In this document: one piece after another, positions 4,876 to 17,685 of the stretch | How positions within the stretch are numbered: position 1 is the stretch's first letter | How the letters are laid out: every line of letters begins with the position of its first letter | NCBI GenBank assembly: GCA_003167555.1 | Contig: PMSN01000025.1 | Span: 248,001 to 312,000 of the forward strand | DNA length: 64,000 nt | Direction of reading: 5' to 3' | DNA from: Spartobacteria bacterium | GTDB taxonomy: Bacteria; Verrucomicrobiota; Verrucomicrobiia; Chthoniobacterales; UBA10450 | Notes under the pieces: model-generated | Databases searched by the model: none | What the model saw: only the letters and a program-made list of their open reading frames with translations | What the model was told of the DNA's origin: nothing | Program-made: the position numbers and the translations under genes

Positions 4876-5976
4876 ATGACCCCCACCGAAGCGTGCATCG
4901 CGCTCAACATGCTTCCGACGATGGGGCCGGTGCGCTTGCGCAAGCTCCTGGAAGTTCTTGAAACGCCCGAGCGCGTCCTGGCGGCGAAGCGAGATGCCTT
5001 GCGTGCGGTCGAAGGAATCGGCAACGACGTTGCGGATCAGATCGTTAATTGGGAAACCATTGTCGACCTGCCGGCGGAACTCGAACGCATCCGCGAGTTC
5101 GGCGCGAACATCATCACCGCTGAGTCGCCGCTCTATCCGCGCCAGCTCCGCGAAATCCATGCGCCACCGATCGTGCTCTACGTCTGGGGCGAACTCATCG
5201 AGCGCGACCAACACGCCATCGCTGTCATCGGTTCGCGGCGCACGACGCATTACGGAATGGAATCTGCGAAGAAGCTTTCCTATCAACTCGCCTACGCGGG
5301 TCTCACCATCATCAGTGGTCTGGCCCGCGGGATCGATACCGCCGCGCATCAAGGCGCGCTCGCGGCCAAGGGCCGCACGATCGCGGTCATCGGCTCTGGA
5401 TTGTCGAAACTTTATCCGCCCGAGAACGACGCGCTCGCGGAAAAAATTCGCAGCGGCAACGGCGCGATCGTTTCCGAGTTCTCGATGGAGATCGAACCCG
5501 ACCGCCAGACTTTTCCGATGCGCAATCGAATCATCAGCGGCTGGAGCCATGGGCTTTTGGTGGTCGAGGCTGGTCTCAACAGCGGCGCGCTCATTACCGT
5601 CGCGCAAGCGCTCGAGCAAGGCCGCTCGGTTTACGCGGTGCCGGGTCACATCAATGCGCCAAGCGCGCAGGGATCGAATCGTCTGATCCAGCAGGGCGCG
5701 AAACTCGTGATGGACGCGAGCGACCTGCTCGATGACTTGCAGATCCTCCTTCCCGAAACGAAGCCGTCGCCGGAAGCGGCCGTGCGTGCGCTGCCTCTCC
5801 TCACCGATGATGAGCGCCGCGTCTATGATGCGATTGAGGCCACGGAAACACCGATCGACGATATCGCGACGAAGTCCGAATTGCCGAGCGGGACGGTCTC
5901 GTCCATCCTCCTGCGTCTCGAACTGAAGCGATTAGTGAAGCAACTGCCTGGAAAATATTTCGTGAAGTTGGCGTAG
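4876..5976 (+). CDS. dprA: DNA-processing protein DprA (Smf)
   Basis: Loads RecA on incoming single strands during natural transformation. The N-terminal SAM/HhH-like region (about 1-70) is followed by the Rossmann-type DprA core with VIGSRRTTHYGMESAKKLSY, ISGLARGIDTAAHQGALA, IGSGLSKLYPPEN and PMRNRIISGWSHGLLVVEA. A C-terminal winged-helix domain (about 305-366) ends in LKRLVKQLPGKYFVKLA. The length of 366 is normal. The stop is immediately followed, with no spacer, by the ATG of an alcohol dehydrogenase. The last 106 bases of the gene recur, diverged, at 7008-7113. Confidence 0.94.
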   Translation: MTPTEACIALNMLPTMGPVRLRKLLEVLETPERVLAAKRDALRAVEGIGNDVADQIVNWETIVDLPAELERIREFGANIITAESPLYPRQLREIHAPPIVLYVWGELIERDQHAIAVIGSRRTTHYGMESAKKLSYQLAYAGLTIISGLARGIDTAAHQGALAAKGRTIAVIGSGLSKLYPPENDALAEKIRSGNGAIVSEFSMEIEPDRQTFPMRNRIISGWSHGLLVVEAGLNSGALITVAQALEQGRSVYAVPGHINAPSAQGSNRLIQQGAKLVMDASDLLDDLQILLPETKPSPEAAVRALPLLTDDERRVYDAIEATETPIDDIATKSELPSGTVSSILLRLELKRLVKQLPGKYFVKLA

Positions 5977-7005
5977 ATGAAGGCCGTTCGTTTGCTGAGA
6001 CCCGGCTCGCCTCTCGAAGAGCAGGAGATCGAGATCCCGTCTATCAGCCCGCGCGATGTTTTGATTCGCGTCAAAGCCGCCGGGATTTGCCATTCCGATG
6101 CGCACTACCGCGCGGGCGTTTCGCCAGTACATCCGTTGCCGCTCACGCTCGGGCATGAAGTTGCCGGCGTTGTCGAGAGAACGGGCGCGGACGTGCGGAG
6201 TTTCACAGCGGGTGAGCGGGTCTGCGTGCATTACCTCGTTACTTGCGGCCGGTGCAATTATTGCCGGACCGGCACTGAACAATTTTGCCCGACGGCCCAG
6301 ATGATCGGAAAACATCGCGACGGCGGCTTCGCGGAATGTATCACGGTGCCGGAGCACAGCGTCTTTCATTTGCCGGACGAAATTCCATTCGAACAAGGCG
6401 CGATCCTGATGTGTTCCTCGGCCACGTCGCTGCATGCGTTGAACAAAGCCCGGCTGCGCGCTGGCGAAACAGTGGCGGTCTTTGGCGTCGGCGGCCTGGG
6501 CATTTCGGCGGTGCAATTGGCCAGGCACTTCGGCGCCGCTGAAGTGTTCGCGGTCGATATCAATCCCACAAAGCTCGCGCTCGCGGAGCGGTTCGGCGCG
6601 ATTTCGGTGAACGCCGCGGTCAGCAATCCCGTCGAGCAGCTTCGAGAACTCGCGCGCGGACGCGGCGTGGATGTCGCGCTAGAATTAATCGGTTTGCCGC
6701 TCACGATGCGACAGGCGGTGCAGTCGCTGGCGATTCTCGGCCGGGCCGCGCTCGTTGGCCTCACGCAGGAAAGTTTCGAAGTCGCGTCCTACACCGAGCT
6801 CGTGAACAAGGAAGCCGAGATCATTGGAGTCTCCGATCATCTGGCGAGTGAAATTCCCGTGCTCATCGACCTGGCACGGACGGGAAAACTTGATCTGTCG
6901 CACGGCATCACCCGCACCGTTCCGCTCGAGGCCGGCGCCGTGAACGGCGTTCTGGATCGCCTCGAAGAATTCGGCGATGACGTTCGCGTCGTCATCACGC
7001 CGTAG
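5977..7005 (+). CDS. Zinc-dependent alcohol dehydrogenase family protein
   Basis: Medium-chain dehydrogenase/reductase of 342 residues. The catalytic-zinc region is AAGICHSDAHYRAG with LTLGHEVAGVVERTG; the structural zinc lobe CGRCNYCRTGTEQFC has four cysteines; the NAD(P)-binding turn is VFGVGGLGISAVQLARHFGA. The substrate is unknown. The ATG abuts the dprA stop codon, and a diverged copy of the dprA 3' end follows the gene. The dehydrogenase therefore looks like cargo inserted at the dprA terminus rather than an original neighbour. It is probably transcribed from the dprA operon. Confidence 0.88.
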   Translation: MKAVRLLRPGSPLEEQEIEIPSISPRDVLIRVKAAGICHSDAHYRAGVSPVHPLPLTLGHEVAGVVERTGADVRSFTAGERVCVHYLVTCGRCNYCRTGTEQFCPTAQMIGKHRDGGFAECITVPEHSVFHLPDEIPFEQGAILMCSSATSLHALNKARLRAGETVAVFGVGGLGISAVQLARHFGAAEVFAVDINPTKLALAERFGAISVNAAVSNPVEQLRELARGRGVDVALELIGLPLTMRQAVQSLAILGRAALVGLTQESFEVASYTELVNKEAEIIGVSDHLASEIPVLIDLARTGKLDLSHGITRTVPLEAGAVNGVLDRLEEFGDDVRVVITP

Positions 7006-7007
7006 AA

Positions 7008-7113
7008 GAAATCCGATTTGCCAAGCGCCGCGGTCTCTTCTACCCTCCTCCGCCTTGAGCTAAAGCGGCTCGTGAAACAGCCGCCCGGAAAATAATTCGC
7101 GACACTGGTGGAG
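7008..7113 (+). pseudogene. Second, diverged copy of the dprA 3' end
   Basis: These 106 bases align without gaps to 5871-5976, the end of dprA, with roughly three quarters of positions identical. In the dprA frame the copy reads KSDLPSAAVSSTLLRLEL, then KRLVKQPPGK, then a stop at 7093-7095, against KSELPSGTVSSILLRLEL and KRLVKQLPGK in the intact gene. Most differences are synonymous, so the copy descended from a functional dprA (a xenologue or old paralogue) rather than from random decay. There is no start codon and no upstream dprA sequence. Confidence 0.85.
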
Positions 7114-7173: not shown

Positions 7174-9954
7174 ATGTCCAAATCGCTCATCATCGCCGAG
7201 AAGCCCAGCGTCGCCGCCGACCTCGCCCGCGCGCTCGGCAAGGTCCCGAAAAAAGGGGACCACTTCGAGAACGACCAATACGTCATCTCTTCCGCGGTCG
7301 GGCACGTCGTGGAACTGCTGATGCCGGAAGACATCGATAAGAAAAAGTACGGCTTCTGGCGGCTCGAGACGCTGCCGATCATTCCGGAGAAATTCGAGCT
7401 CAAGCCGAGCGAAAGTTCCAAAGGCAAATTCGCGCAGTTGAAAAAGCTGATCGCGCGCAAAGACATCACAGAAGTCGTGAACGCCTGCGACGCCGGCCGC
7501 GAAGGTGAACTGATTTTTACCTACCTCACGCAGCTCGCAAAAAACAAGCACCCGGTGAAACGCCTCTGGCTGCAATCGATGACGCCGCAAGCCATTCGCG
7601 ATGGTTTCAGTAGACTGCGCGACGGCGCGGAAATGCAGGGACTGGCCGACGCCGCCCGTTCGCGGAGCGAGAGCGACTGGCTCATCGGCATCAACGGCAC
7701 GCGCGCGATCACTAAACGCATGTTCGGTTCGCGCGCCGGCAACGTCGCCTCGGTCGGTCGCGTCCAGACGCCCACGCTGGCGATCGTTTACGCGCGCGAA
7801 CTGGAGATTCGGAATTTTAAACCGCGCGGTTACTGGCGGGTGACGGCGAAATTCGGTCTCGCGAAAGGCGAATACGAAGGCGTTTACCAGCGAGAGAATT
7901 TCAAGAAGAACGACGACGAGCACGATCGGATCGATCGCATGTGGGATCAGGTGGCGGCGGAAGCGGTCGTCGCGGCGTGCCAGGGGCATCCGCTCGCGAG
8001 CGTTTCCGAAGAGAGAAAAGCCAGCTCGCAAATCGCACCGCGCCTTTACGATCTGACCACGCTGCAACGCGAGGCCAATGGCCGCTACGGATTCTCAGCC
8101 AAGCGCACTCTGCAAATCGCGCAGGCCCTTTACGAGCGGCACAAAATGCTGACTTATCCGCGCACGGATTCGCGCGCCCTGCCGGAAGATTATCTCCCGG
8201 TCGTGAAACAAACGCTCGGCAACCTTTCCGGTTCGCTCCAAACGCACGCTGAGAAAGTGCTCGCGCAAAACTGGGTCCGGCCTAACAAGCGCATCTTCAA
8301 CAACGCGCAGATCAGCGATCACTTCGCCATCATCCCGACCGCGTCGGAAGCGAAGCACCTCGATGAGGCGGAAACGAAAATTTACGAAATGGTCGCGCGG
8401 CGTTTCGTCGCCGTGTTTTTTCCCGCGGCCGAATTCGATATCACCACGCGCCTCAGCCAGATCGGCGCGCACAAATTCAAAACCGAAGGCAAAGTGCTCA
8501 CCTCCGCCGGCTGGCTCGAAGTTTACGGCAAGAGCACGGTCGATGACGACTCGGGCAAAGCGTTGCCAGCTCTGAGCGCGGAAGACAAGAACCAGGCGAA
8601 GACACTCGAAGCCACGTTGCACGCGGAGACAACCAAACCGCCGCCGCGTTACACAGAAGCGACGCTGCTTTTCGCTATGGAAACGGCGGGCAAACTAGTC
8701 GAGGACGAAGACGCAGCGGAAGCGATGAAAGAGCGCGGCCTCGGCACGCCGGCGACCCGCGCCAATATCATCGATGAGTTGATCGAGAAGAAGTTCATGG
8801 ATCGTCAGCAACGCGAGTTGGTCCCGACCTCGAAGGCCGAGCAGCTGATCGAGTTTCTCAGTGCGGTAAAGGTCACCGATATCATGAGTCCTGCGATGAC
8901 CGGTGAATGGGAGCATCAGTTGCGCTTGATGGAGCACGGAAAATTTCCGCGGGCGAAATTCATGGCCGAGATCGTCGAGGAGACGAAAGGCATCGTGGAA
9001 CGCGTGAAAGGTTTCGAGGAAGACGATTCCATCGCGCGCGAAACCGACATCGTTTCTCCGACCGACGGCAAGCCGTTGCGCGAAACGTTGCGCGGCTACA
9101 AGTCGCAGGACGGCGAGTTCATGCTCTACAAGGTCATCGGCGGCCGGAAAATGGAGGAGAGCGAAATTCGCGAGCTGGTCGAGAAAGGCGTCGTCGGTCC
9201 GCTCGACGGTTTCATTTCGAACAAGACCAGGGCCAATTTCGCCGCCACGCTCAAACTCGTGAAGGACGAAAAGACCGGGAAATGGAAAGCCGAATACGAT
9301 TTCGGCGACAAAGTGGACATCGGCTCAGTCGAATCATTCTGGACCGATCCCGCGACCGGCGGGGAATTATGCGAAGTCGGCTCGAGCTACGTGTTGCGCG
9401 AACGCGAGAACGGCGAATGGAAGCAGACGCTTCGCCTGCCGCGTCTCATGTGCAAAAAAGAAGTCACACGCGAACAGGCGGTGCGGCTGGTCGAGCAAGG
9501 CAAGACCGACCTGATCAAGGGATTCATTTCCAAGAAAGGCCGTCCCTTCGATGCATTCCTCGTGCGGAACGAGGCGAAGATTCGCTGGGAATTTCCGCCG
9601 CGCGTCGCGAAAACCGGCAAGGACGGCAAACCGGTCGAGCGCAAAGCGCGCGTGAAAGCCGATCTCTCGAAAGCGAAAGTCATCGGCGAAAGCAAGACGC
9701 ATGGCGGCGAGCTGGTCGAGCTGGACGACGCCTACTACGTGCGCAAGCCCGATCAGGATAATCGGCAGGTCTTCAAGCTCTCGAAAAAACTATGCGAGCA
9801 CGAGATTACGCCCGAGGAAGTGAAAGAACTCCTGAGCGAAGGAAGATCGCCGCTCATCGAAGATTTCGTGTCAAAACGCGGCAACAAATTCGGCGCCCAT
9901 CTCGTGCTCTCGCAAAAGAAAGACAAAGCCGAGTTCGAGTTCCCCCCGCGTTGA
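7174..9954 (+). CDS. topB: Type IA DNA topoisomerase (topoisomerase III-like) with three C-terminal repeats
   Basis: Relaxes or decatenates DNA by single-strand passage. The Toprim domain holds LIIAEKPSVAADLARALG (acidic Glu9) and CDAGREGELIF near 105-115. The catalytic tyrosine is Tyr328 in MLTYPRTDSRALPEDY; RGLGTPATRANIIDELIEKK follows. SVGRVQTPTLAIVYARE and the YPRTDSR form match topoisomerase III better than TopA. After residue about 610 there are three tandem repeats of about 90 residues, each ending in a pattern like F-[VI]-S-[KN]-K/R-x-x-x-F-x-A-x-L; two end in EFPPR. No C-terminal Cys4 zinc fingers are visible. At 926 residues it is longer than E. coli TopB. The 3' end is repeated at 10920-10998. 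Confidence 0.9.
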   Translation: MSKSLIIAEKPSVAADLARALGKVPKKGDHFENDQYVISSAVGHVVELLMPEDIDKKKYGFWRLETLPIIPEKFELKPSESSKGKFAQLKKLIARKDITEVVNACDAGREGELIFTYLTQLAKNKHPVKRLWLQSMTPQAIRDGFSRLRDGAEMQGLADAARSRSESDWLIGINGTRAITKRMFGSRAGNVASVGRVQTPTLAIVYARELEIRNFKPRGYWRVTAKFGLAKGEYEGVYQRENFKKNDDEHDRIDRMWDQVAAEAVVAACQGHPLASVSEERKASSQIAPRLYDLTTLQREANGRYGFSAKRTLQIAQALYERHKMLTYPRTDSRALPEDYLPVVKQTLGNLSGSLQTHAEKVLAQNWVRPNKRIFNNAQISDHFAIIPTASEAKHLDEAETKIYEMVARRFVAVFFPAAEFDITTRLSQIGAHKFKTEGKVLTSAGWLEVYGKSTVDDDSGKALPALSAEDKNQAKTLEATLHAETTKPPPRYTEATLLFAMETAGKLVEDEDAAEAMKERGLGTPATRANIIDELIEKKFMDRQQRELVPTSKAEQLIEFLSAVKVTDIMSPAMTGEWEHQLRLMEHGKFPRAKFMAEIVEETKGIVERVKGFEEDDSIARETDIVSPTDGKPLRETLRGYKSQDGEFMLYKVIGGRKMEESEIRELVEKGVVGPLDGFISNKTRANFAATLKLVKDEKTGKWKAEYDFGDKVDIGSVESFWTDPATGGELCEVGSSYVLRERENGEWKQTLRLPRLMCKKEVTREQAVRLVEQGKTDLIKGFISKKGRPFDAFLVRNEAKIRWEFPPRVAKTGKDGKPVERKARVKADLSKAKVIGESKTHGGELVELDDAYYVRKPDQDNRQVFKLSKKLCEHEITPEEVKELLSEGRSPLIEDFVSKRGNKFGAHLVLSQKKDKAEFEFPPR

Positions 9955-10017
9955 GGGCTTCGGTTCAAATGCCGGAAGAGCACCGCCTGTTGCCGAAAGC
10001 CAGCAACGCCCGCTTCT

Positions 10018-10710
10018 TCACTGGATGCGAACCGTTATTTCGTAGTTTTTCCCTTTTGCGAGGCCGACGCCCTGAAGAAAACCGCTGCTCGCTTTTTCGC
10101 TGATCTTGACCTCCGCCGTCATCATCGCGGATGCCGTCTTGGTTAATTCATAGGAGGAACTGGTCGATTCTCCCACTTGCAGGGCAAACTTCGTCGCGGC
10201 GTCCGGCACATCCACACTTTGCGAGGCAGGATTCGTCACCGCATGGGACGACTGCAGCTTGTTGTCCGGGCCGTAGAAGGCAACGGTGTAGGGGGGATTC
10301 TTGGGATCGCCGGTGAAATTGAGCTTGCGGCCGGGAACCGAAGCCGAAGGGCTCGGCGGCGGCTGGGCGTAGGCGGAAGATACCAGCGAAAACGATAGCT
10401 CCGTCCCAGCCATCGGCGGCGCGCTGCTCGGTGGGAGCGGGCTCGACGCAGGCACCGATTGCAACGTCCCGACCTGGAACATTGCCGGCAAGCCAACGCC
10501 GATGAAGAGCGCGCGCTTCAAATTCTTTTCCTTAAATGCCCAGGCTACGAGAGCGCCCACAGCCGCGAAACCAACCATCGCCACGCAATAGAAAACTGGC
10601 TGGGTGGTGATGGGTTGCGGGTTAGGCGAACTGTAATTGACGAATACCCGGACGAGGTTCGGAGCCACTCCCCCGAACGCTCCAAAGAAGATTGCAGATT
10701 TATTGGTCAT
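10018..10710 (-). CDS. Hypothetical membrane-anchored protein
   Basis: The product is 230 residues from the ATG at 10710, which has a good AGGAG Shine-Dalgarno 7 bases upstream; an in-frame ATG at 10734 lacks one. Two hydrophobic segments lie in the first 90 residues (around FYCVAMVGFAAVGALVAWAF and RALFIGVGLPAMFQV). A Pro/Ser/Ala-rich linker with SSAYAQPPPSPSAS follows, then an extracytoplasmic-looking domain of about 100 residues with KLNFTGDPKNPPYTVAFYG. I do not recognise the family. The gene is convergent with topB and is bracketed by direct repeats of the topB 3' end, so it is probably acquired cargo. Confidence 0.65.
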   Translation of the reverse strand: MTNKSAIFFGAFGGVAPNLVRVFVNYSSPNPQPITTQPVFYCVAMVGFAAVGALVAWAFKEKNLKRALFIGVGLPAMFQVGTLQSVPASSPLPPSSAPPMAGTELSFSLVSSAYAQPPPSPSASVPGRKLNFTGDPKNPPYTVAFYGPDNKLQSSHAVTNPASQSVDVPDAATKFALQVGESTSSSYELTKTASAMMTAEVKISEKASSGFLQGVGLAKGKNYEITVRIQ

Positions 10711-10919
10711 ATTAGTTACTCCTGTCTGCGGCATGATAGCCGCCTTCTGAAATTGGCTTTGCTGGCGAGGGGTTCGTGGCCACGGTTGCCTGCCGCTGGG
10801 CTGATGCGGCTGTGGGGGCGCGCTGGTTGGCGTGAATTCATGAGGGAATTTCCTGGGTGGTCGGTTGACTCAGTTAAGTCAGGAATTCAGGAATTTGGCG
10901 AGAAGAATTCTGTGTTTCG

Positions 10920-11000
10920 AAACGCGGCAACAAATTCGGCGCCCATCTCGTCCTCTCGCAAAAGAAAGACAAAGCCGGGTTCGAGTTCCCCCCGCGTTAA
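10920..11000 (+). pseudogene. Second, near-identical copy of the topB 3' end
   Basis: Bases 10920-10998 match 9874-9952 at all but two positions (offset 1046). They encode SKRGNKFGAHLVLSQKKDKA, then GFEFPPR and a TAA stop, against KAEFEFPPR and TGA in topB. A few codons further upstream are still recognisable (EEFCVSKR against EDFVSKR) before similarity is lost. No start codon is present. The flanks match the topB terminus only, so this is a 3'-end duplication. Confidence 0.9.
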
Positions 11001-11197
11001 CGGGCCGTTCTCTGCTTCGGTAGGGCGAGACTCTGTCGAGCCGAATGCAGCTCCTTGGGGCATGGGGTTCGGGTTTTTCACCACCGGAAGAGCGGGGGAT
11101 TCCAAGGGAAACCTCCGTTCCGTTCGGGGCGAATTTATTTAACAGCGCGAGAGTAGCGGGAAATTTCGTGGCGTGTCACGAAAAAAGTGAAGCCGAT

Positions 11198-11299
11198 AAA
11201 GCCAAACTTGGAGCAGACCAAGACCTGTTTTCGAACCGGCTCCAAGGCCTCGCCGACCTGCTCTTCCTTGGTAAACGGTCCATATCCCTCCTTGGCGTC
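11198..11299 (-). pseudogene. Aldo/keto reductase gene fragment
   Basis: Read on the minus strand, this stretch encodes IDAKEGYGPFTKEEQVGEAL followed by EPVRKQVLVCSKFGF. That is the family pattern of aldo/keto reductases around the active-site Tyr (D-x-A-x-x-Y-G-x-x-x-x-E-x-x-V-G-x-A-L, then V-x-x-x-[ST]-K-F-G-F). The first Asp-Ala codons start one base after the restriction gene's stop. No N- or C-terminal part of the enzyme is found nearby. It is therefore a remnant truncated on both sides. Confidence 0.7.
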
Positions 11300-12023
11300 A
11301 ATTCATGCGTAGCCAAATGTGTTCGATTTCGACCGGAGACGAACAACATGGTGGGACCAACCGACCGTGAGTTGAAATCAACTTATCAACGTTCGTGTCC
11401 GGTGAACCCGTGGCTCTCGAAAGGAGCTCGGCGGGATTCCAATGCCCCCCATCGGTACCATTCTTTGCGAGTAGGGCAAGGCGCGCATTGATAACTGAAA
11501 GCCAATATTGGAAAGACTCTGTCTGGACATACCCGATGATGAGCGCTCGCCGATTGCTCCGACCGTGTAGCCCATGCTTGAATCTCTCAATCGCGCCAGT
11601 TCGATGTCCTGGCAAACCGTGAACATATTCTAGGTCACTGCGGCGATTGTCCGGCGGAGTCGGGAGCCGTTTGCACTCAATGGGGAGTAATTGCTCGAAG
11701 TCATCATAGGTCCTTCCCTCGACGACAATGAGTCCAAGCGGCATGACGCCAATGTCTCCACGGCGGGCCGAACTCTGAAGAGGCTCTTGTAGGAACTGAA
11801 CGGCATCGAAGCACTGTCGGCGTGACGCGCTGTTGAGGTGGACGCACAGCGTTTGATTTAGATTTGGCTCGTCGGTCAGAGGCGGACGTGTCGGACGGTC
11901 CCGCCACACCGGAAGCTCACGCCCGATAAACGCGACGATCTCTCGGTGGAAGGCATCGGCATTTAATACTGTCGCATCCGGGGTGCCGACGGCGGGAGTC
12001 GGGCGTGGTTCGTCGGCGATCAT
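11298..12023 (-). CDS. Putative restriction endonuclease subunit, PD-(D/E)XK type
   Basis: A 241-residue protein encoded 8 bases downstream of an N6-adenine methyltransferase stop, so surely co-transcribed. The middle contains RRGDIGVMPLGLIVVEGRTY, DDFEQLL and PIECKRLPT: an Asp, then about 25 residues later E-x-K in a hydrophobic strand, the arrangement of PD-(D/E)XK nucleases. An upstream helix contains DEPNLNQTLC, which could supply the first acidic residue. No close family is recognised. Reading it as the restriction partner of the methyltransferase rests on position and this motif. The stop codon abuts the aldo/keto reductase fragment. Confidence 0.6.
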   Translation of the reverse strand: MIADEPRPTPAVGTPDATVLNADAFHREIVAFIGRELPVWRDRPTRPPLTDEPNLNQTLCVHLNSASRRQCFDAVQFLQEPLQSSARRGDIGVMPLGLIVVEGRTYDDFEQLLPIECKRLPTPPDNRRSDLEYVHGLPGHRTGAIERFKHGLHGRSNRRALIIGYVQTESFQYWLSVINARLALLAKNGTDGGHWNPAELLSRATGSPDTNVDKLISTHGRLVPPCCSSPVEIEHIWLRMN

Positions 12024-12031
12024 CCCAGGGT

Positions 12032-14911
12032 TCAGAAACCCAACGCCCGGAGGTCCGCCAGCGCCTCATCTGCATCGCGAAGCGCGATGGAACGCAGCCA
12101 GTAGCGCAGGCGATTTGGCTTGATGAGGAACAAGAACGGCCCATCGAAAAGGCGCAAGATGCGCACAGTGATGAGGGACGCGCTCTTTTTGGAACGCAGA
12201 AGCTTGGTTAGTTTTTCGCTAAGACTCTCTGCGTCTTTCCAATCAGGTTCCGCCTTACCGAAGACAAACGGCTGACAGCAGACCCCCGCCCAAGCTCTAG
12301 CTGGCAGCGGTCGCATCTTCTTATGCACAGCATTAATCTGCCGCGTGAAGATGCGCGCAAACTCGCGATGATCATCGAAATCCGTAGCTCGCATTATCTC
12401 AGCGTCATCTCCTATCCGCTGGTAGTCGCGGTAGTACTCGAAGACGTCGCTGATGATTATCTGATCGTTCTCAGTGAGGTCGAGGTCGGCTTCATCCGCA
12501 GGAAAAGGTAGTTCGTCGAACGCCTCCTTTTCGACTGAAGTGGCTTGTTTAATTCCCGCGTCAGAACTGGTAAGGCAGAGCCAACTTCTGTATAGCTCAT
12601 GGTGGTGTCGAAGCCGATTGGCGAGCTTCTCATGCGCTTCCAGCGGACCATTTGAACCACTTATGCCTAGGATCCTCTTTCCAAAAGTGATCTCGCCCCT
12701 CCGCTTGCTCCAATAGCCAAAGCGAAATTCGTCGGTGCGGGCGATTAGGATCAAGGGCGATTGGTAAATCAATTCTGACCCAGGGTCGACAAATCGCTTC
12801 TTGTCCTGAACGGTGATTAGCTGTGTGTCTATTTCGCCATCTGTCCCAATGGCTTTTGCTGGCAACACGCTTTTTCGCCATAAATAGTTCACAGTTTTGT
12901 CATTCTTTGGCGTCCCGACTTGGAAGCCAATACCGTGCTGCCACCCCATTTCCTTAAGATAGTCCTGTAAGTCACGGAGCTTCTTCAACCGCTCCACCAA
13001 ACTCACTGCCCGACAACCCCCAAAAAGATTGCAGCGCCATACAAAGTCCTTGGTCACAGCAATGTGCCGTGGCACCCACTGCATCTCATAGTAATCCAGT
13101 TCAAAACTCGATTCTGCCTTGGTGTGAACTGTCCGCCGAAAGATTGCATGGAGGATTGAACGCTCGGGGTTTGGAGTTTCCGCCTCGGCGAGGACTACGA
13201 CGACTTTCGGATCTTTGTTGAAAAGCCCACGAATAGGTGTGAAATCCAAGATCTCGCGAACATCCCAATGTTCAAAGACAGCGCGGCGAAAGGCAACGCT
13301 GCGGCGGTTGTAGAGAAAGTTGTCCTTTTGCAACAGGCAGAGCAGGCCGCCTTTTACGAGAGCCATCATGCTATGATGCAGGAACAGATAGGCCGATTGT
13401 TTATCGGGGAGACTGTGCTCGCCATGTTGAGCGAGGTATTCGTCGTAGGCTTGAGCCGTCGTTCCTTTGTCCGAAGCCGAACCAAACGGCGGATTGCCCA
13501 CCACGACGCCGATATTGCGGGGCAGTTTCCCCTCGCGTGCTTGTTGGAAGAAGCAAGCCTCCATCAGTGTCTTATTTTTCAAAGATGGAAAGAGCTTCCG
13601 CGTCTTGAGTATCGTTTGAGGAGTCAGCTCTTCGCACATAGCCAAACAAAGACTGAAGGCAGCAAGTTCAACGGCGGAGCCATCAACGTCTGTCCCGCGG
13701 ACGCGCTGCATGAGTGTGCGGAGCACGTCTACAGGTGGATGTTGCCAGTCATGTATCTTTCGCCAATGAAGGACCAGCCGCTTGAAGGATTCGACGAGAA
13801 AAACGCCTGATCCACAGGCCGGGTCAAAAACCACTTCCTTTTGCTTCTCAAGGCGATCCATCCGGTCAAGCGTGAGCGCTTCTTCTAACATCAGTCGCGC
13901 GAGGAAGGGCGGAGTGTAAACGCACGTGGTCTGGTCCTCTACGAAGAGCTGGTAGATGTGGCTGATCAGTTCGACCGGTAAGTCATGGAAGGAATAAAGC
14001 CGCCAGAGCGTCTGTTGTCCGCCGGCTTCGGTATTGCCCTCAATCAGTTCTGCAAACTTTTTTAGGTGTGTGGTCTGCAGCAGTTGCTGTTTCTCATCCT
14101 CCTCAATGGTGAAGACGTTGCCGTTGAATCGCTCAGTTTCGAGATACTTGAGAAGTTCAATGAGCGCGCCAGCATCGGCCAAAACATGAAAAAACTTCGA
14201 CGCGTCGGGTTTGAAGCGGGAAAAGAAATCAGGTTCGAGCCTGAAGACGTTTCGGTCCTCAAGGTACGCGACAAGAAGTGAAATGACCAGAAGACGGCGA
14301 CGCAGATTCCTCGCTAGCCGGCTTTCACTGGCTAAGCGCGTATCAAGAGCTTCAACGTTTCGGAGTAGCGTTTTGTGGGCGGCGTCTTCGGAAAGGAATC
14401 GTCCGGCGACGTTCCTATCATCCCAAAGCGTGCCGTTTGCCAGGCGCCGCATATCCCACCAAGGCTTGTCTTCGAGAAGGTCAGTAATCTCGCCGGCGGT
14501 ATTGATTCGATCGTAGAACGAATATTTCGGCTGAGCCTTCCCGGTATCAAAATCCGGCTTATGCCCACATCGAAAGATGTCCACGCGGCCAGACAAGCGG
14601 CGATAGACTAACGGAACCACCCCCCAGCTCCAGAGACGACGGTGCAGGTGGGCGAAGTCCTGATCGGTTCTGACCCCGTTACCGGAAGAATCGTCGAATA
14701 CCAGCGCTTCGGCGACTTTAGGCCGCCCGTCGCGGGCGCGGAAAAATACGTGGGAGGCGCCGAAAGACTTCGCTTTTTCCAAATGCACTCGCTCGTCGGC
14801 ACCGAGTGGGGACGCGTCTTCTAGATCGCTTACCGGACGCAGTCCCGACTCCAATAGACGGCGTGTCGCGCGTCCGGTCCGCCAAAATGTGATGCTTTCA
14901 GCTAGCTGCAC
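12032..14911 (-). CDS. N6-adenine DNA methyltransferase (Eco57I/type IIG-like)
   Basis: A 959-residue protein. An N-terminal region (about 1-330) contains DGRPKVAEALVF and LWSWGVVPLVYRRLSGRVD. The catalytic domain holds VYTPPFLARLMLEEAL, SAM-binding motif I FDPACGSGVFLVESF (about 370) and motif IV VVVGNPPFG (about 480), giving an N6-adenine specificity. About 400 further residues probably hold the target-recognition domain. The GTG start at 14911 is the first start codon after an in-frame stop two codons upstream. No nuclease motif is evident within it, and the partner downstream supplies a PD-(D/E)XK pattern. Together they form a two-gene restriction-modification cassette with lower GC than the flanking core genes. 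Confidence 0.85.
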   Translation of the reverse strand: MQLAESITFWRTGRATRRLLESGLRPVSDLEDASPLGADERVHLEKAKSFGASHVFFRARDGRPKVAEALVFDDSSGNGVRTDQDFAHLHRRLWSWGVVPLVYRRLSGRVDIFRCGHKPDFDTGKAQPKYSFYDRINTAGEITDLLEDKPWWDMRRLANGTLWDDRNVAGRFLSEDAAHKTLLRNVEALDTRLASESRLARNLRRRLLVISLLVAYLEDRNVFRLEPDFFSRFKPDASKFFHVLADAGALIELLKYLETERFNGNVFTIEEDEKQQLLQTTHLKKFAELIEGNTEAGGQQTLWRLYSFHDLPVELISHIYQLFVEDQTTCVYTPPFLARLMLEEALTLDRMDRLEKQKEVVFDPACGSGVFLVESFKRLVLHWRKIHDWQHPPVDVLRTLMQRVRGTDVDGSAVELAAFSLCLAMCEELTPQTILKTRKLFPSLKNKTLMEACFFQQAREGKLPRNIGVVVGNPPFGSASDKGTTAQAYDEYLAQHGEHSLPDKQSAYLFLHHSMMALVKGGLLCLLQKDNFLYNRRSVAFRRAVFEHWDVREILDFTPIRGLFNKDPKVVVVLAEAETPNPERSILHAIFRRTVHTKAESSFELDYYEMQWVPRHIAVTKDFVWRCNLFGGCRAVSLVERLKKLRDLQDYLKEMGWQHGIGFQVGTPKNDKTVNYLWRKSVLPAKAIGTDGEIDTQLITVQDKKRFVDPGSELIYQSPLILIARTDEFRFGYWSKRRGEITFGKRILGISGSNGPLEAHEKLANRLRHHHELYRSWLCLTSSDAGIKQATSVEKEAFDELPFPADEADLDLTENDQIIISDVFEYYRDYQRIGDDAEIMRATDFDDHREFARIFTRQINAVHKKMRPLPARAWAGVCCQPFVFGKAEPDWKDAESLSEKLTKLLRSKKSASLITVRILRLFDGPFLFLIKPNRLRYWLRSIALRDADEALADLRALGF

Positions 14912-15029
14912 GCTCGATCATAGTAAGGGGTTCATCGTTCTCAAGCTGCTTCGCCTGCGGTAGGCTGCAATTTTTCTGGCGAATCGATTGGCGTTCATCG
15001 GTAGCCACGCTGACGTTAAATTCCTTCAT
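14898..15029 (-). CDS. Possible small ORF upstream of the methyltransferase
   Basis: A 43-codon frame starting MKEFNVSVATDERQSIRQKN ends in TGA 14 bases inside the methyltransferase gene, in another frame. The overlap resembles translational coupling, and a short leader protein or C-protein-like controller would fit here. It has no helix-turn-helix that I can see and only a poorly spaced purine run before the ATG. It may be chance. Confidence 0.25.
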   Translation of the reverse strand: MKEFNVSVATDERQSIRQKNCSLPQAKQLENDEPLTMIERAAS

Positions 15030-15214
15030 CTCTCAAAATCTGCCAGTGGCGGTAGGACATCCGCTGTCCTATCCTGGAAATTCTTCAACAAGAAATGGAA
15101 GTTTGCGCGCATTACGCGATTCCAACGCCACAACAGTTTTTGTGTTTGCGCTGGCTGCCGCAGGGGGGAAAGCGAGGATGGAGGATCGAGGATTGAGGAT
15201 GGAGGCGGTTCCAT

Positions 15215-15640
15215 TCATTTCTCGTCGCGCTCGAGTCCGGTGAACGTACGAAGAAACTTTTCGAACTGCGGCACGTAGCGGGAAAGAATCGCTTTGGCAA
15301 TTTCGGTCGCGGTTTCCTCCTTGTAGGCATGGGTGGTCCGGTTGCGACTCTGGATCATCGCCATCCATTCCTCGTCTTCTTCGATCAAGCCTTTGGCAAA
15401 GGCTTCGCGCGTCGCATGCTTGGAGCCGTAAAGATTGCTGGCGCCGTGGGATTCCAAAAAATCCTTGAACGTGATCCAGCCCAGTTCGTGCGTGAACTCA
15501 AAAGTGTGGATGAGACCTAGCCGTTCCAAGTCCGACAACTTTCGGTCTGTCGCGATGGTCGCGGCCCTAGACAGCTGCCAGAACGCCTTGCGAAAGCTGT
15601 GCAGGCGTTGCCGCCATCGCACATCAGGGTTCTGCGCCAT
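15215..15640 (-). CDS. HEPN-domain protein, HI0074-type nucleotidyltransferase substrate-binding family
   Basis: A 141-residue all-helical protein with FRKAFWQLSRAATIATDRKL, IHTFEFTHELGWITFKDFLE and, near residue 100, QSRNRTTHAYKE. The last segment contains the R-x4-H signature (RNRTTH) of HEPN proteins. The family is normally encoded next to a small MNT-fold nucleotidyltransferase, with which it forms a type VII toxin-antitoxin or AMPylation pair. No such partner (GSxxxG..D.D motif) is found on either side here, so it is an orphan. It lies beside the restriction-modification genes in what looks like a small defence cluster. Confidence 0.75.
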   Translation of the reverse strand: MAQNPDVRWRQRLHSFRKAFWQLSRAATIATDRKLSDLERLGLIHTFEFTHELGWITFKDFLESHGASNLYGSKHATREAFAKGLIEEDEEWMAMIQSRNRTTHAYKEETATEIAKAILSRYVPQFEKFLRTFTGLERDEK

Positions 15641-15788
15641 GGATCAGAGATTACCCGGAAACGGTTCGGATCGCAGCGAATTTTTCAAGCACAGAGGGCT
15701 CTGGCCAGATTGCTCTGCGCGAGCCCGCCCGGACAAGACGCGCCGACGGAGCGGCGCGGCTACAGAGCGAGAGGCCGCGGCCAATTCC

Positions 15789-15818
15789 GCTCTTAATGAT
15801 TGGCGATGCCGGGAAGCA
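15789..15818 (-). repeat. Second copy of the 3' end of the 15924-16391 membrane-protein gene
   Basis: Bases 15789-15818 repeat 15921-15949 with a few differences and one extra T. On the minus strand both copies encode LLPGIANH followed by a stop. The copies are about 130 bases apart and enclose an AAAGTAGAAA-type repeat. Confidence 0.6.
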
Positions 15819-15824
15819 GGCACT

Positions 15825-15872
15825 CAAAAGTAGAAATTAGAAAGTAGGAAGTAGAAAAGACAGAGGGCAGGG
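15825..15872. repeat. AAAGTAGAAA-type dispersed repeat, copy 1
   Basis: The segment begins CAAAAGTAGAAATTAGAAAG and runs into GACAGAGGGCAGGGG. It matches 16460-16512 closely (same order of short AGTAGAAA units followed by GGAGGGCAGG or GAGGGCAGG). The two copies flank the membrane-protein gene at 15924-16391. Confidence 0.6.
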
Positions 15873-15923
15873 GACGGACGTCGGAAGACAGAGAGAGAAA
15901 AAACGCTGGAGGAGCGGATTGCT

Positions 15924-16391
15924 CTAATGATTCGCGATGCCGGGAAGGAGACTGAGGCGGAGTGCGCCGAGCTGGAGCGCAAGCACGACAATCGATATTC
16001 CGAGGCCGGCGTACCACCGGACGCCGGATCGAAAGACGAGGGATTGCACAATGACGAAGCACGAGGCGAGTCCGACTACGATCGTCATCGCGATCTCAAC
16101 GGCAGAGTAATGGCCGCGAAGGATTGACGCCCAGCCGAGCAGGTAGAGCCAGATGAACACCATGATCGCGAGCCAAAACAGGGCGACGGGAAGCGCTGTC
16201 CATTTCGCGCTGCCGCGCTGGCGAAAGCCGAGATAAACGGTCAGCCAGGACGGTGCGGTTTGGACCAGGTGTCTGAGGACGCCGGAGCTGACGCTGCCGA
16301 CGACGAGCAGGGCTGCGATGGTGACGAGGGAGGCGAGCGCGAGAGCTTTCGCGTGCCGCTGCTGTGGAGGAGGCAAGGCGTTGTTCATCAT
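15924..16391 (-). CDS. Hypothetical four-helix integral membrane protein
   Basis: A 155-residue protein with four strong hydrophobic segments: ALASLVTIAALLVVGSVSSG, LPVALFWLAIMVFIWLYLLG, IAMTIVVGLASCFVIVQSLV and LGISIVVLALQLGALRLSLL. Charged loops are short, and I recognise no family or catalytic motif. The start ATG-ATG lies at the 5' end next to an AGTAGAAA repeat. The last eight codons and stop occur again 130 bases downstream. It has no operon partners. Confidence 0.6.
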   Translation of the reverse strand: MMNNALPPPQQRHAKALALASLVTIAALLVVGSVSSGVLRHLVQTAPSWLTVYLGFRQRGSAKWTALPVALFWLAIMVFIWLYLLGWASILRGHYSAVEIAMTIVVGLASCFVIVQSLVFRSGVRWYAGLGISIVVLALQLGALRLSLLPGIANH

Positions 16392-16459
16392 TATTGTGAT
16401 GCAGCACGGGCGCTGTTTGGATTCAACTGGAAGTCGGAAGGCGGAGGACAGAGGACGTT

Positions 16460-16512
16460 CAAAAGTAGAAAGTAGAAAGTAGAAATTAGAAAGTAGAAAA
16501 GATGGAGGGCAG
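16460..16512. repeat. AAAGTAGAAA-type dispersed repeat, copy 2
   Basis: The segment begins CAAAAGTAGAAAGTAGAAAG and ends in GATGGAGGGCAGG. It is longer by one AGTAGAAA unit than the copy at 15825-15872. Both are direct, not inverted. Confidence 0.6.
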
Positions 16513-16545
16513 GCGGCAGGGAGGGCAGAGGACGGAGAAAGCAGC

Positions 16546-16564
16546 GGCAGGCGGAGCGCCTGCC
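16546..16564. repeat. Short palindrome GGCAGGCGGAGCGCCTGCC
   Basis: A 19-base near-perfect palindrome in the 730-base gene-poor stretch between 16392 and 17121. It resembles REP-like hairpins elsewhere in the window. That stretch otherwise holds the AGTAGAAA repeat, a decayed gene (16679-16935) and a degenerate CTTCGACTGCGCTCAGCATG repeat near 16982-17005. Confidence 0.45.
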
Positions 16565-16678
16565 CTACAATTTTGCGGAGGTGACACGATCGAGGAGGCG
16601 ATTTGCATGCTCGAGGAGCGACGTGGCGAATGCGAAAGGTTGATCCTGTAGCGGCGCTCTCTAAGCGCCGAGCGAACG

Positions 16679-16935
16679 TCAGGCGACAGTCAATTCGGCC
16701 CGCTTGAGGGCGATTTCGAAAACGTCGAGAAGCTGCTTCTTTTGTTCCTGCGCCGACCGAGTCGCATCCAGCTTTCGCTCCAAGGCGAGGCCGGAGAGCG
16801 GCTCGGCCAGGCGGAGCAGTCGCTCGCCCCCGGCAACTTCACCAGCTCGATCTGGATGGTGTCGCGATTGGCCACGAACTGATTGTCATCAGAACCCTAG
16901 AATTGCAACATGCGATCGAGGTTCTCTGGCTGACA
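16679..16935 (-). pseudogene. Decayed gene fragment of unknown family (C-terminal part)
   Basis: On the minus strand, successive frames give NLDRMLQF, a stop, SDDNQFVANRDTIQIELVK, a frame change, then VAGGERLLRLAEPLSGLALE, RKLDATRSAQEQKKQLLDVF and EIALKRAELTVA with a TGA stop at 16679-16681. Joined, these make one sensible helical C-terminus, so at least two disabling changes are present (one stop or frameshift near 16905 and one frameshift near 16835). The upstream part is lost in repeat sequence. The family is not recognised. Sequencing error could explain one change but hardly both. Confidence 0.55.
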
Positions 16936-17121: not shown

Positions 17122-17685
17122 ATGCGTTGTCCCAAGTGCGGTTTTCGTGACGATAAGGTCATCGACTCTCGCCAGTCTCGTGATAGTTCCAGCATCCGCC
17201 GCCGCCGCGTTTGTTTACAGTGCGCGTACCGCTTCACCACTTACGAGCAAATCGAGCGCTCCGATCTGCGCGTGATCAAACGCGACCGCACCCATGAACC
17301 GTTCGATCGCCGCAAACTCGTGAGCAGCCTGGCGAAAGCGTGCGAGAAACGCTCGATCAGTCTCGTGACGCTCGAGACGGCGGTGGATGAGATCGTGCAT
17401 GAATTGGAAACGAGCGGGCGCGAAGTTTCGTCGGCGACGATCGGCACGAAGGTGCTGGAGAAATTGCGCGTGATCGATGAGGTGGCGTATCTGCGCTACG
17501 CGTCGGTCCATCGCCGGTTCGAGGAGGTGGATGAATTTGTGGATGCGATCCAGGCGCTCGGTCGCCGGATCAAGCCGAACAGTCTTCAACCTGAATTGTT
17601 CGCGCCGGAGACGGCGCCACCTGCATCGCATCCCGCCACGGCGGGAGCGCGCGAGGCCGAAGCCAATACTCATGGTCGCGTTTAA
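17122..17685 (+). CDS. nrdR: Transcriptional repressor NrdR
   Basis: Represses ribonucleotide reductase genes in response to (d)ATP. The N-terminal zinc ribbon is MRCPKCGFRDDKVIDSR with the second Cys pair in RRRVCLQCAYRFTTYE. The ATP-cone (about 50-140) has VIKRDRTHEPFDRRKLVSSL and AYLRYASVHRRFEEVDEF. The core ends near residue 155 like other NrdRs; a low-complexity tail of about 30 residues is added. The stop lies 14 bases inside the next gene, indicating coupling. No nrd gene is in the window. Confidence 0.95.
   Translation: MRCPKCGFRDDKVIDSRQSRDSSSIRRRRVCLQCAYRFTTYEQIERSDLRVIKRDRTHEPFDRRKLVSSLAKACEKRSISLVTLETAVDEIVHELETSGREVSSATIGTKVLEKLRVIDEVAYLRYASVHRRFEEVDEFVDAIQALGRRIKPNSLQPELFAPETAPPASHPATAGAREAEANTHGRV

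Follow-up and report, generated by a model that had tools for sequence, protein, structure and literature searches.

A second topB 3′ end in a Spartobacteria genome: possible relic of a displaced allele

How does a conserved gene come to be followed, about 1 kb downstream, by a second copy of its own 3′ end? The question is raised by a 64,000-nucleotide stretch of a Spartobacteria bacterium genome (GCA_003167555.1, contig PMSN01000025.1, positions 248,001 to 312,000; hereafter the window), in which the DNA topoisomerase gene topB is complete and its last codons recur beyond an unrelated convergent gene. A first-pass annotation had read this layout as the trace of a small element that integrated at the topB terminus and restored it. 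The relevant features, in window coordinates, are as follows.

4876..5976, plus strand: dprA, core gene upstream; topB is directly next in outgroups
5977..7005, plus strand: adh, alcohol-dehydrogenase-like gene inserted behind dprA in the genus
7009..7107, plus strand: dprA 3′ relic, 33 aa at 76%, decayed, directly before topB
7174..9954, plus strand: topB, long-type DNA topoisomerase of 926 aa (Topoisom_bac plus C-terminal repeats), the allele now in place
9868..9954, plus strand: copy 1, the final 29 topB codons counting the stop (28 codons plus stop)
10018..10710 (possible start to 10734), minus strand: orphan gene, an ORF convergent to topB
10914..11000, plus strand: copy 2, 5′-truncated topB 3′ end with stop codon TAA, a probable relic
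11020..11042, plus strand: GTAG-tagged REP palindrome, with 75 exact copies of its 20-base core genome-wide
11062..11186, minus strand: element E, a repeat of ~110 bp resembling a promoter plus leader
11298..12023, minus strand: 241 aa ORF, not found in 57 relatives
12032..14911, minus strand: type IIG-like restriction-methyltransferase gene, not found in 57 relatives
15215..15640, minus strand: HI0074/HepT-like gene, 54% to a gene in the same gap of relative G007
17122..17685, plus strand: nrdR, core gene closing the gap in relatives

The repeated topB end and the DNA gained behind it

Recomputing the repeat reproduced the annotated 79-base core, in which 9874–9952 recurs at 10920–10998 with two differences and an offset of 1046. 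It had been described as exact; over the full homology, 9868–9954 and 10914–11000, 82 of 87 bases are identical (94%), stop codon included, and five differ. Also as annotated, the second copy keeps a stop and a single convergent gene lies between the two. A chance origin was discarded on the strength of the match (BLAST E about 1e-33), and assembly collapse is unlikely, since the longest identical stretch is just 32 bases.

The five differences leave the protein nearly unchanged: four are silent (three synonymous codons and the stop, TGA in copy 1 and TAA in copy 2), and one converts E to G. Eight bases are common to both copies but different in G003, the closest relative, so that copies 1 and 2 have common ancestry after the G003 split. 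Where the two differ synonymously, at three codons, it is copy 2 and not copy 1 that shows the G003 (ancestral) state, and the first codons of copy 2 (GTT TCG) are those of G003; changes private to copy 2 are the E-to-G replacement and TGA to TAA. If both copies had diverged from one duplicate, a split with three silent changes on the copy 1 side and two changes on the copy 2 side would be mildly unlikely (p about 0.04–0.07). The flanks directly 3′ of the two stops align well by eye, but their likeness is not significant (p 0.15). Immediately left of the copy 2 joint lies a near-match, GAAGAATTC/GAAGATTTC, which could be microhomology and is only suggestive.

Copy 2 sits inside a longer stretch of new DNA, whose extent, to about 16,670, the annotation had overlooked. 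In an alignment to G003, window positions 9955 and about 16,670 correspond to points only ~140 bp apart, and in most other close relatives nrdR begins about 65 to 1040 bp after topB. These relatives are the empty sites that the annotation had proposed to look for: they have a single topB end, lack the orphan gene and carry nrdR a short way downstream. The window has thus gained DNA downstream of topB and been left with an additional gene end. That part of the insertion reading stands. A small site-specific element bounded by the two repeats does not, as the gain is ~6.7 kb rather than 1.05 kb, and no third topB-end repeat was found at the far border (~16,670). The absence of an integrase was borne out: no site-specific recombinase was found in 9955–16680 or elsewhere on the contig, and the ten PF00589 tyrosine-recombinase matches of this genome are on its other contigs.

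The gain comprises the orphan gene, the second topB end, the REP palindrome (of the GTAG class, PMC3733652), element E, the 241 aa ORF, and the type IIG-like and HepT-like genes. No Pfam, NCBIfam or PADLOC family was assigned to the orphan product, for which a low-confidence model (mean pLDDT 49) predicts three N-terminal helices followed by a small beta region. Searches of genome contigs, viral contigs and plasmids yielded no relatives; the sole one found, distant and 23–29% identical, belongs to another genus of the family. The 241 aa ORF lies beside the type IIG-like gene as a partner ORF. The HepT/HI0074-like gene lacks an MNT partner in the window, while in G007 MNT follows HepT (L087:9834-10594). 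With a HepT-like relative in the same G007 gap, part of the gap content may be older and lost elsewhere. An Rfam scan of the window stretch gave nothing above threshold.

Other relatives also carry DNA between topB and nrdR: 3.7 kb in G006 (an acetyltransferase and a TIR protein), 7.6 kb in G007 and 1.7 kb in G021, none with a topB-end repeat. Judged from these gap sequences, the topB–nrdR gap is a hot spot for extra DNA. A Y1 transposase gene lies in the G007 gap (L087:4308-4799).

Element E was found only in this genus, where four genomes together contain six copies, five lying in the topB–nrdR gap; the copies other than that of the window are L087:5596-5709, 6591-6704 and 7478-7572 (all G007), L039:4520-4642 and L088:9868-9982. 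Every copy adjoins, on the upstream side, a different and unrelated minus-strand gene. Element E looks like a promoter with a conserved leader; a consensus promoter scan did not call it. The 0.9–1 kb spacing of the G007 copies had raised the suspicion of an integron-like array, which was rejected because E lacks a conserved stem and is not near any integrase.

Gene-end relics in relatives and at dprA

We surveyed about 70 relatives (73 loci) for topB relics, using the family's long and short topB types, which share about 50% protein identity, as queries against the gaps. At least five further genomes have truncated topB 3′ ends downstream of topB and on its strand, for the most part with accessory genes in between. 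G024 has a long-type topB, followed by 154 nt that match a short-type topB 3′ end at 81% (E 3e-35), best that of its own genus g6, in which G044 and G050 are still short-type. G003, also long-type, has a short-type tail behind topB (78 nt at 81%, E 4e-14). In G080 two relics lie 0.96 and 6.7 kb downstream of topB; their ends, RTTAVSESKQTS and RTTAVSQSKQTS, resemble that of G083 (RTTAASESKQTS) and are unlike that of its own topB (DHAHSGSKQVPSRRGS). G011 and G094 have one relic each, 3.5 kb and 2.5 kb behind topB, respectively. Because the long and short types are so little alike, the G024 and G003 relics are not duplicates of the present topB; by allele type, they are the tails of topB genes that stood there before.

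All surveyed relics are on the topB strand and, with the exception of the decayed G003 relic, reach the gene end. Their start points vary, from about 29 to 90 codons before the topB end, which argues against a fixed recombination core. Where genes intervene between topB and a relic, most run opposite to topB, as they do in the window; G024 and G003 have no gene in between, their relics directly following topB. No surveyed genome carries a pair of full topB genes at this locus, and no remains of topB 5′ parts were found among the relics, all of which are short. An old tandem duplication of topB, which the first-pass annotation had named as the history that would refute its reading, also found no counterpart, as no surveyed locus contains a long downstream topB copy. 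Two sets of apparent hits were discarded: relics obtained with the G085 query, whose topB passes across N's and continues in an unrelated frame, and downstream matches in G098, G099 and G004, which are their own frameshifted topB.

The gene itself appears to have been exchanged at this locus. The topB type switches at the same position within genus g1 and within g6, and amino acid identity of topB is 86% between genera (G024) and 85% within the genus (G001), as compared with 84% and 95%, respectively, for dprA.

A parallel case lies next door. Gene order is dprA–adh–[dprA 3′ relic]–topB in the genus and dprA–topB in outgroup genera, where neither adh nor relic is present, so that an empty site of the kind predicted for topB exists at the neighboring gene as well; the relic occupies the place of the dprA end in the outgroups. 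In a control covering 298 ORFs of 300+ aa in the examined loci, only topB and dprA gave such relics, together with repeated surface-protein and TPR-like paralogues in G003. The same structure at dprA shows that the process is not confined to an att site in topB.

Three further observations concern these loci. Upstream of topB in G005 (L017) the adh 3′ end is repeated three more times in tandem with a period of ~212 bp, which shows that tandem duplication also occurs nearby. Two minus-strand ORFs between topB and the relic in G011 (L050) look like the ends of RHS-repeat genes, a family with displaced 3′ ends. And G003 has an internal topB fragment of 434 bp (G003:C10:182898-183330, L034), 89% identical to its own topB, 36 kb away from it in opposite orientation and abutting a repeated surface-protein gene fragment.

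A proposed displacement route and its alternatives

We consider copy 2 to be probably the 3′ end of a former resident topB, left behind when an incoming topB allele displaced it together with new genes. The donor DNA would have brought in a topB allele, in this case one close to the resident, followed by new genes. On the left it would have joined by homologous recombination in or upstream of topB, and on the right by illegitimate joining inside the last codons of the resident gene. The outcome would be a complete new topB, the cargo downstream of it and, as a fossil, the 3′ end of the old gene. An event of this one-sided kind would account for the observations jointly. We infer that the route was homology-facilitated illegitimate recombination and that the orphan gene came in the same event as the topB replacement. 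Such events would have recurred at topB across the family, with one at dprA in the ancestor of the genus. Leftover ends of former alleles are present in G024, G003 and G080, with a weaker signal from copy 2 in the window. An illegitimate junction at short or no homology may have formed on one side: the 5′ truncation of the relics varies, and the near-match at the window joint is suggestive only. The type switches and the topB and dprA distances are consistent with homologous crossover in the anchor gene. Counted against displacement are the position of element E, which is on the far side of the relic and would have no gene to serve unless the orphan gene is driven from it across the relic, the lack of significant likeness between the flanks after the two stops, and the tandem adh ends in G005.

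The closeness of the two copies is what gives a plain local duplication its place here. Template switching, or tandem duplication and later deletion, could have put a topB end 1 kb downstream, in the leader of the orphan gene, with no foreign topB involved. The copies are 94% identical, and their eight shared differences from G003 place the origin of copy 2 in or near this lineage; the GAAGAATTC/GAAGATTTC pair could have served as microhomology, the REP palindrome lies 20 bases beyond copy 2, and the G005 adh copies offer a precedent. However, copying the current gene cannot give the relics of other alleles found at the same place in G024, G003 and G080, and the dprA case points to displacement too. 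We regard local duplication as unlikely, though still plausible, for the window.

Insertion of a second topB with its cargo beside the old one, followed by deletion of the old gene from its 5′ side down to its 3′ end, would yield the same final layout, relics of other alleles included. It requires an extra step, and the lack of paired full genes and of 5′ remains among these short relics makes it quite improbable. Less credible still is the annotation's own reading, site-specific integration at the topB 3′ end of a small element mobilised in trans. The order of complete gene, cargo and displaced end fits it, and the tyrosine-recombinase matches elsewhere in the genome might supply the enzyme. 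But there is no fixed core, the outer border and other occupied sites have no repeat, and dprA shows the same structure; moreover, relics of another topB type would not arise from an integration that rebuilds the end of the gene it enters. We hold it to be very improbable.

Under the displacement reading, dprA–topB–nrdR may form a standing entry port in this bacterial family, at which DNA anchored on dprA or topB repeatedly swaps the allele and adds accessory genes, the stacked 3′ relics being an ordered record. We advance this generalization more tentatively than the displacement itself.

Relation to known systems and significance

Within the limited literature searched, the process is known in kind and its setting at housekeeping genes is new; repeated displacement at such genes with stacked 3′ relics was not found there. 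At Vibrio cholerae T6SS effector genes, sequential displacement leaves immunity genes and effector 3′ ends, and homology-facilitated illegitimate recombination has been proposed for it (PMC5361080). The likeness is a conserved upstream anchor, a new module coming in and the old gene's 3′ end shifted back (PMC5361080); here, in contrast, topB or dprA, both housekeeping genes, serves as the anchor, the relics have no toxin or immunity role, and most of the cargo lies on the other strand. C-terminal displacement in rhs and cdi genes leaves rows of orphaned 3′ regions behind an intact gene (PMC5361080; PMC3150448); rhs tips are variable toxin ends, whereas the topB relic consists of the final codons of the conserved gene itself. 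Events with one homologous and one illegitimate end have likewise been reported from transformable bacteria and from conjugating E. coli, as homology-facilitated illegitimate recombination (PMC3240628). That process is known from laboratory events, whereas here it is read from fossils, with the right junction within the anchor gene. Elements that integrate at the 3′ end of a gene also restore it whole and leave the displaced end at a distance, but here there is no integrase and no fixed core, and the relics are of different alleles.

Accessory genes that enter chromosomes without an integrase are difficult to trace, since a clean homologous exchange is scarless. Relic gene ends downstream of a conserved gene record that such events took place, in which order, and from which allele. 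If the pattern is general, same-strand 3′ relics of core genes would allow such acquisitions to be counted across bacteria, and a relic scan would tell the displacement route from the integrase-made islands that it mimics.
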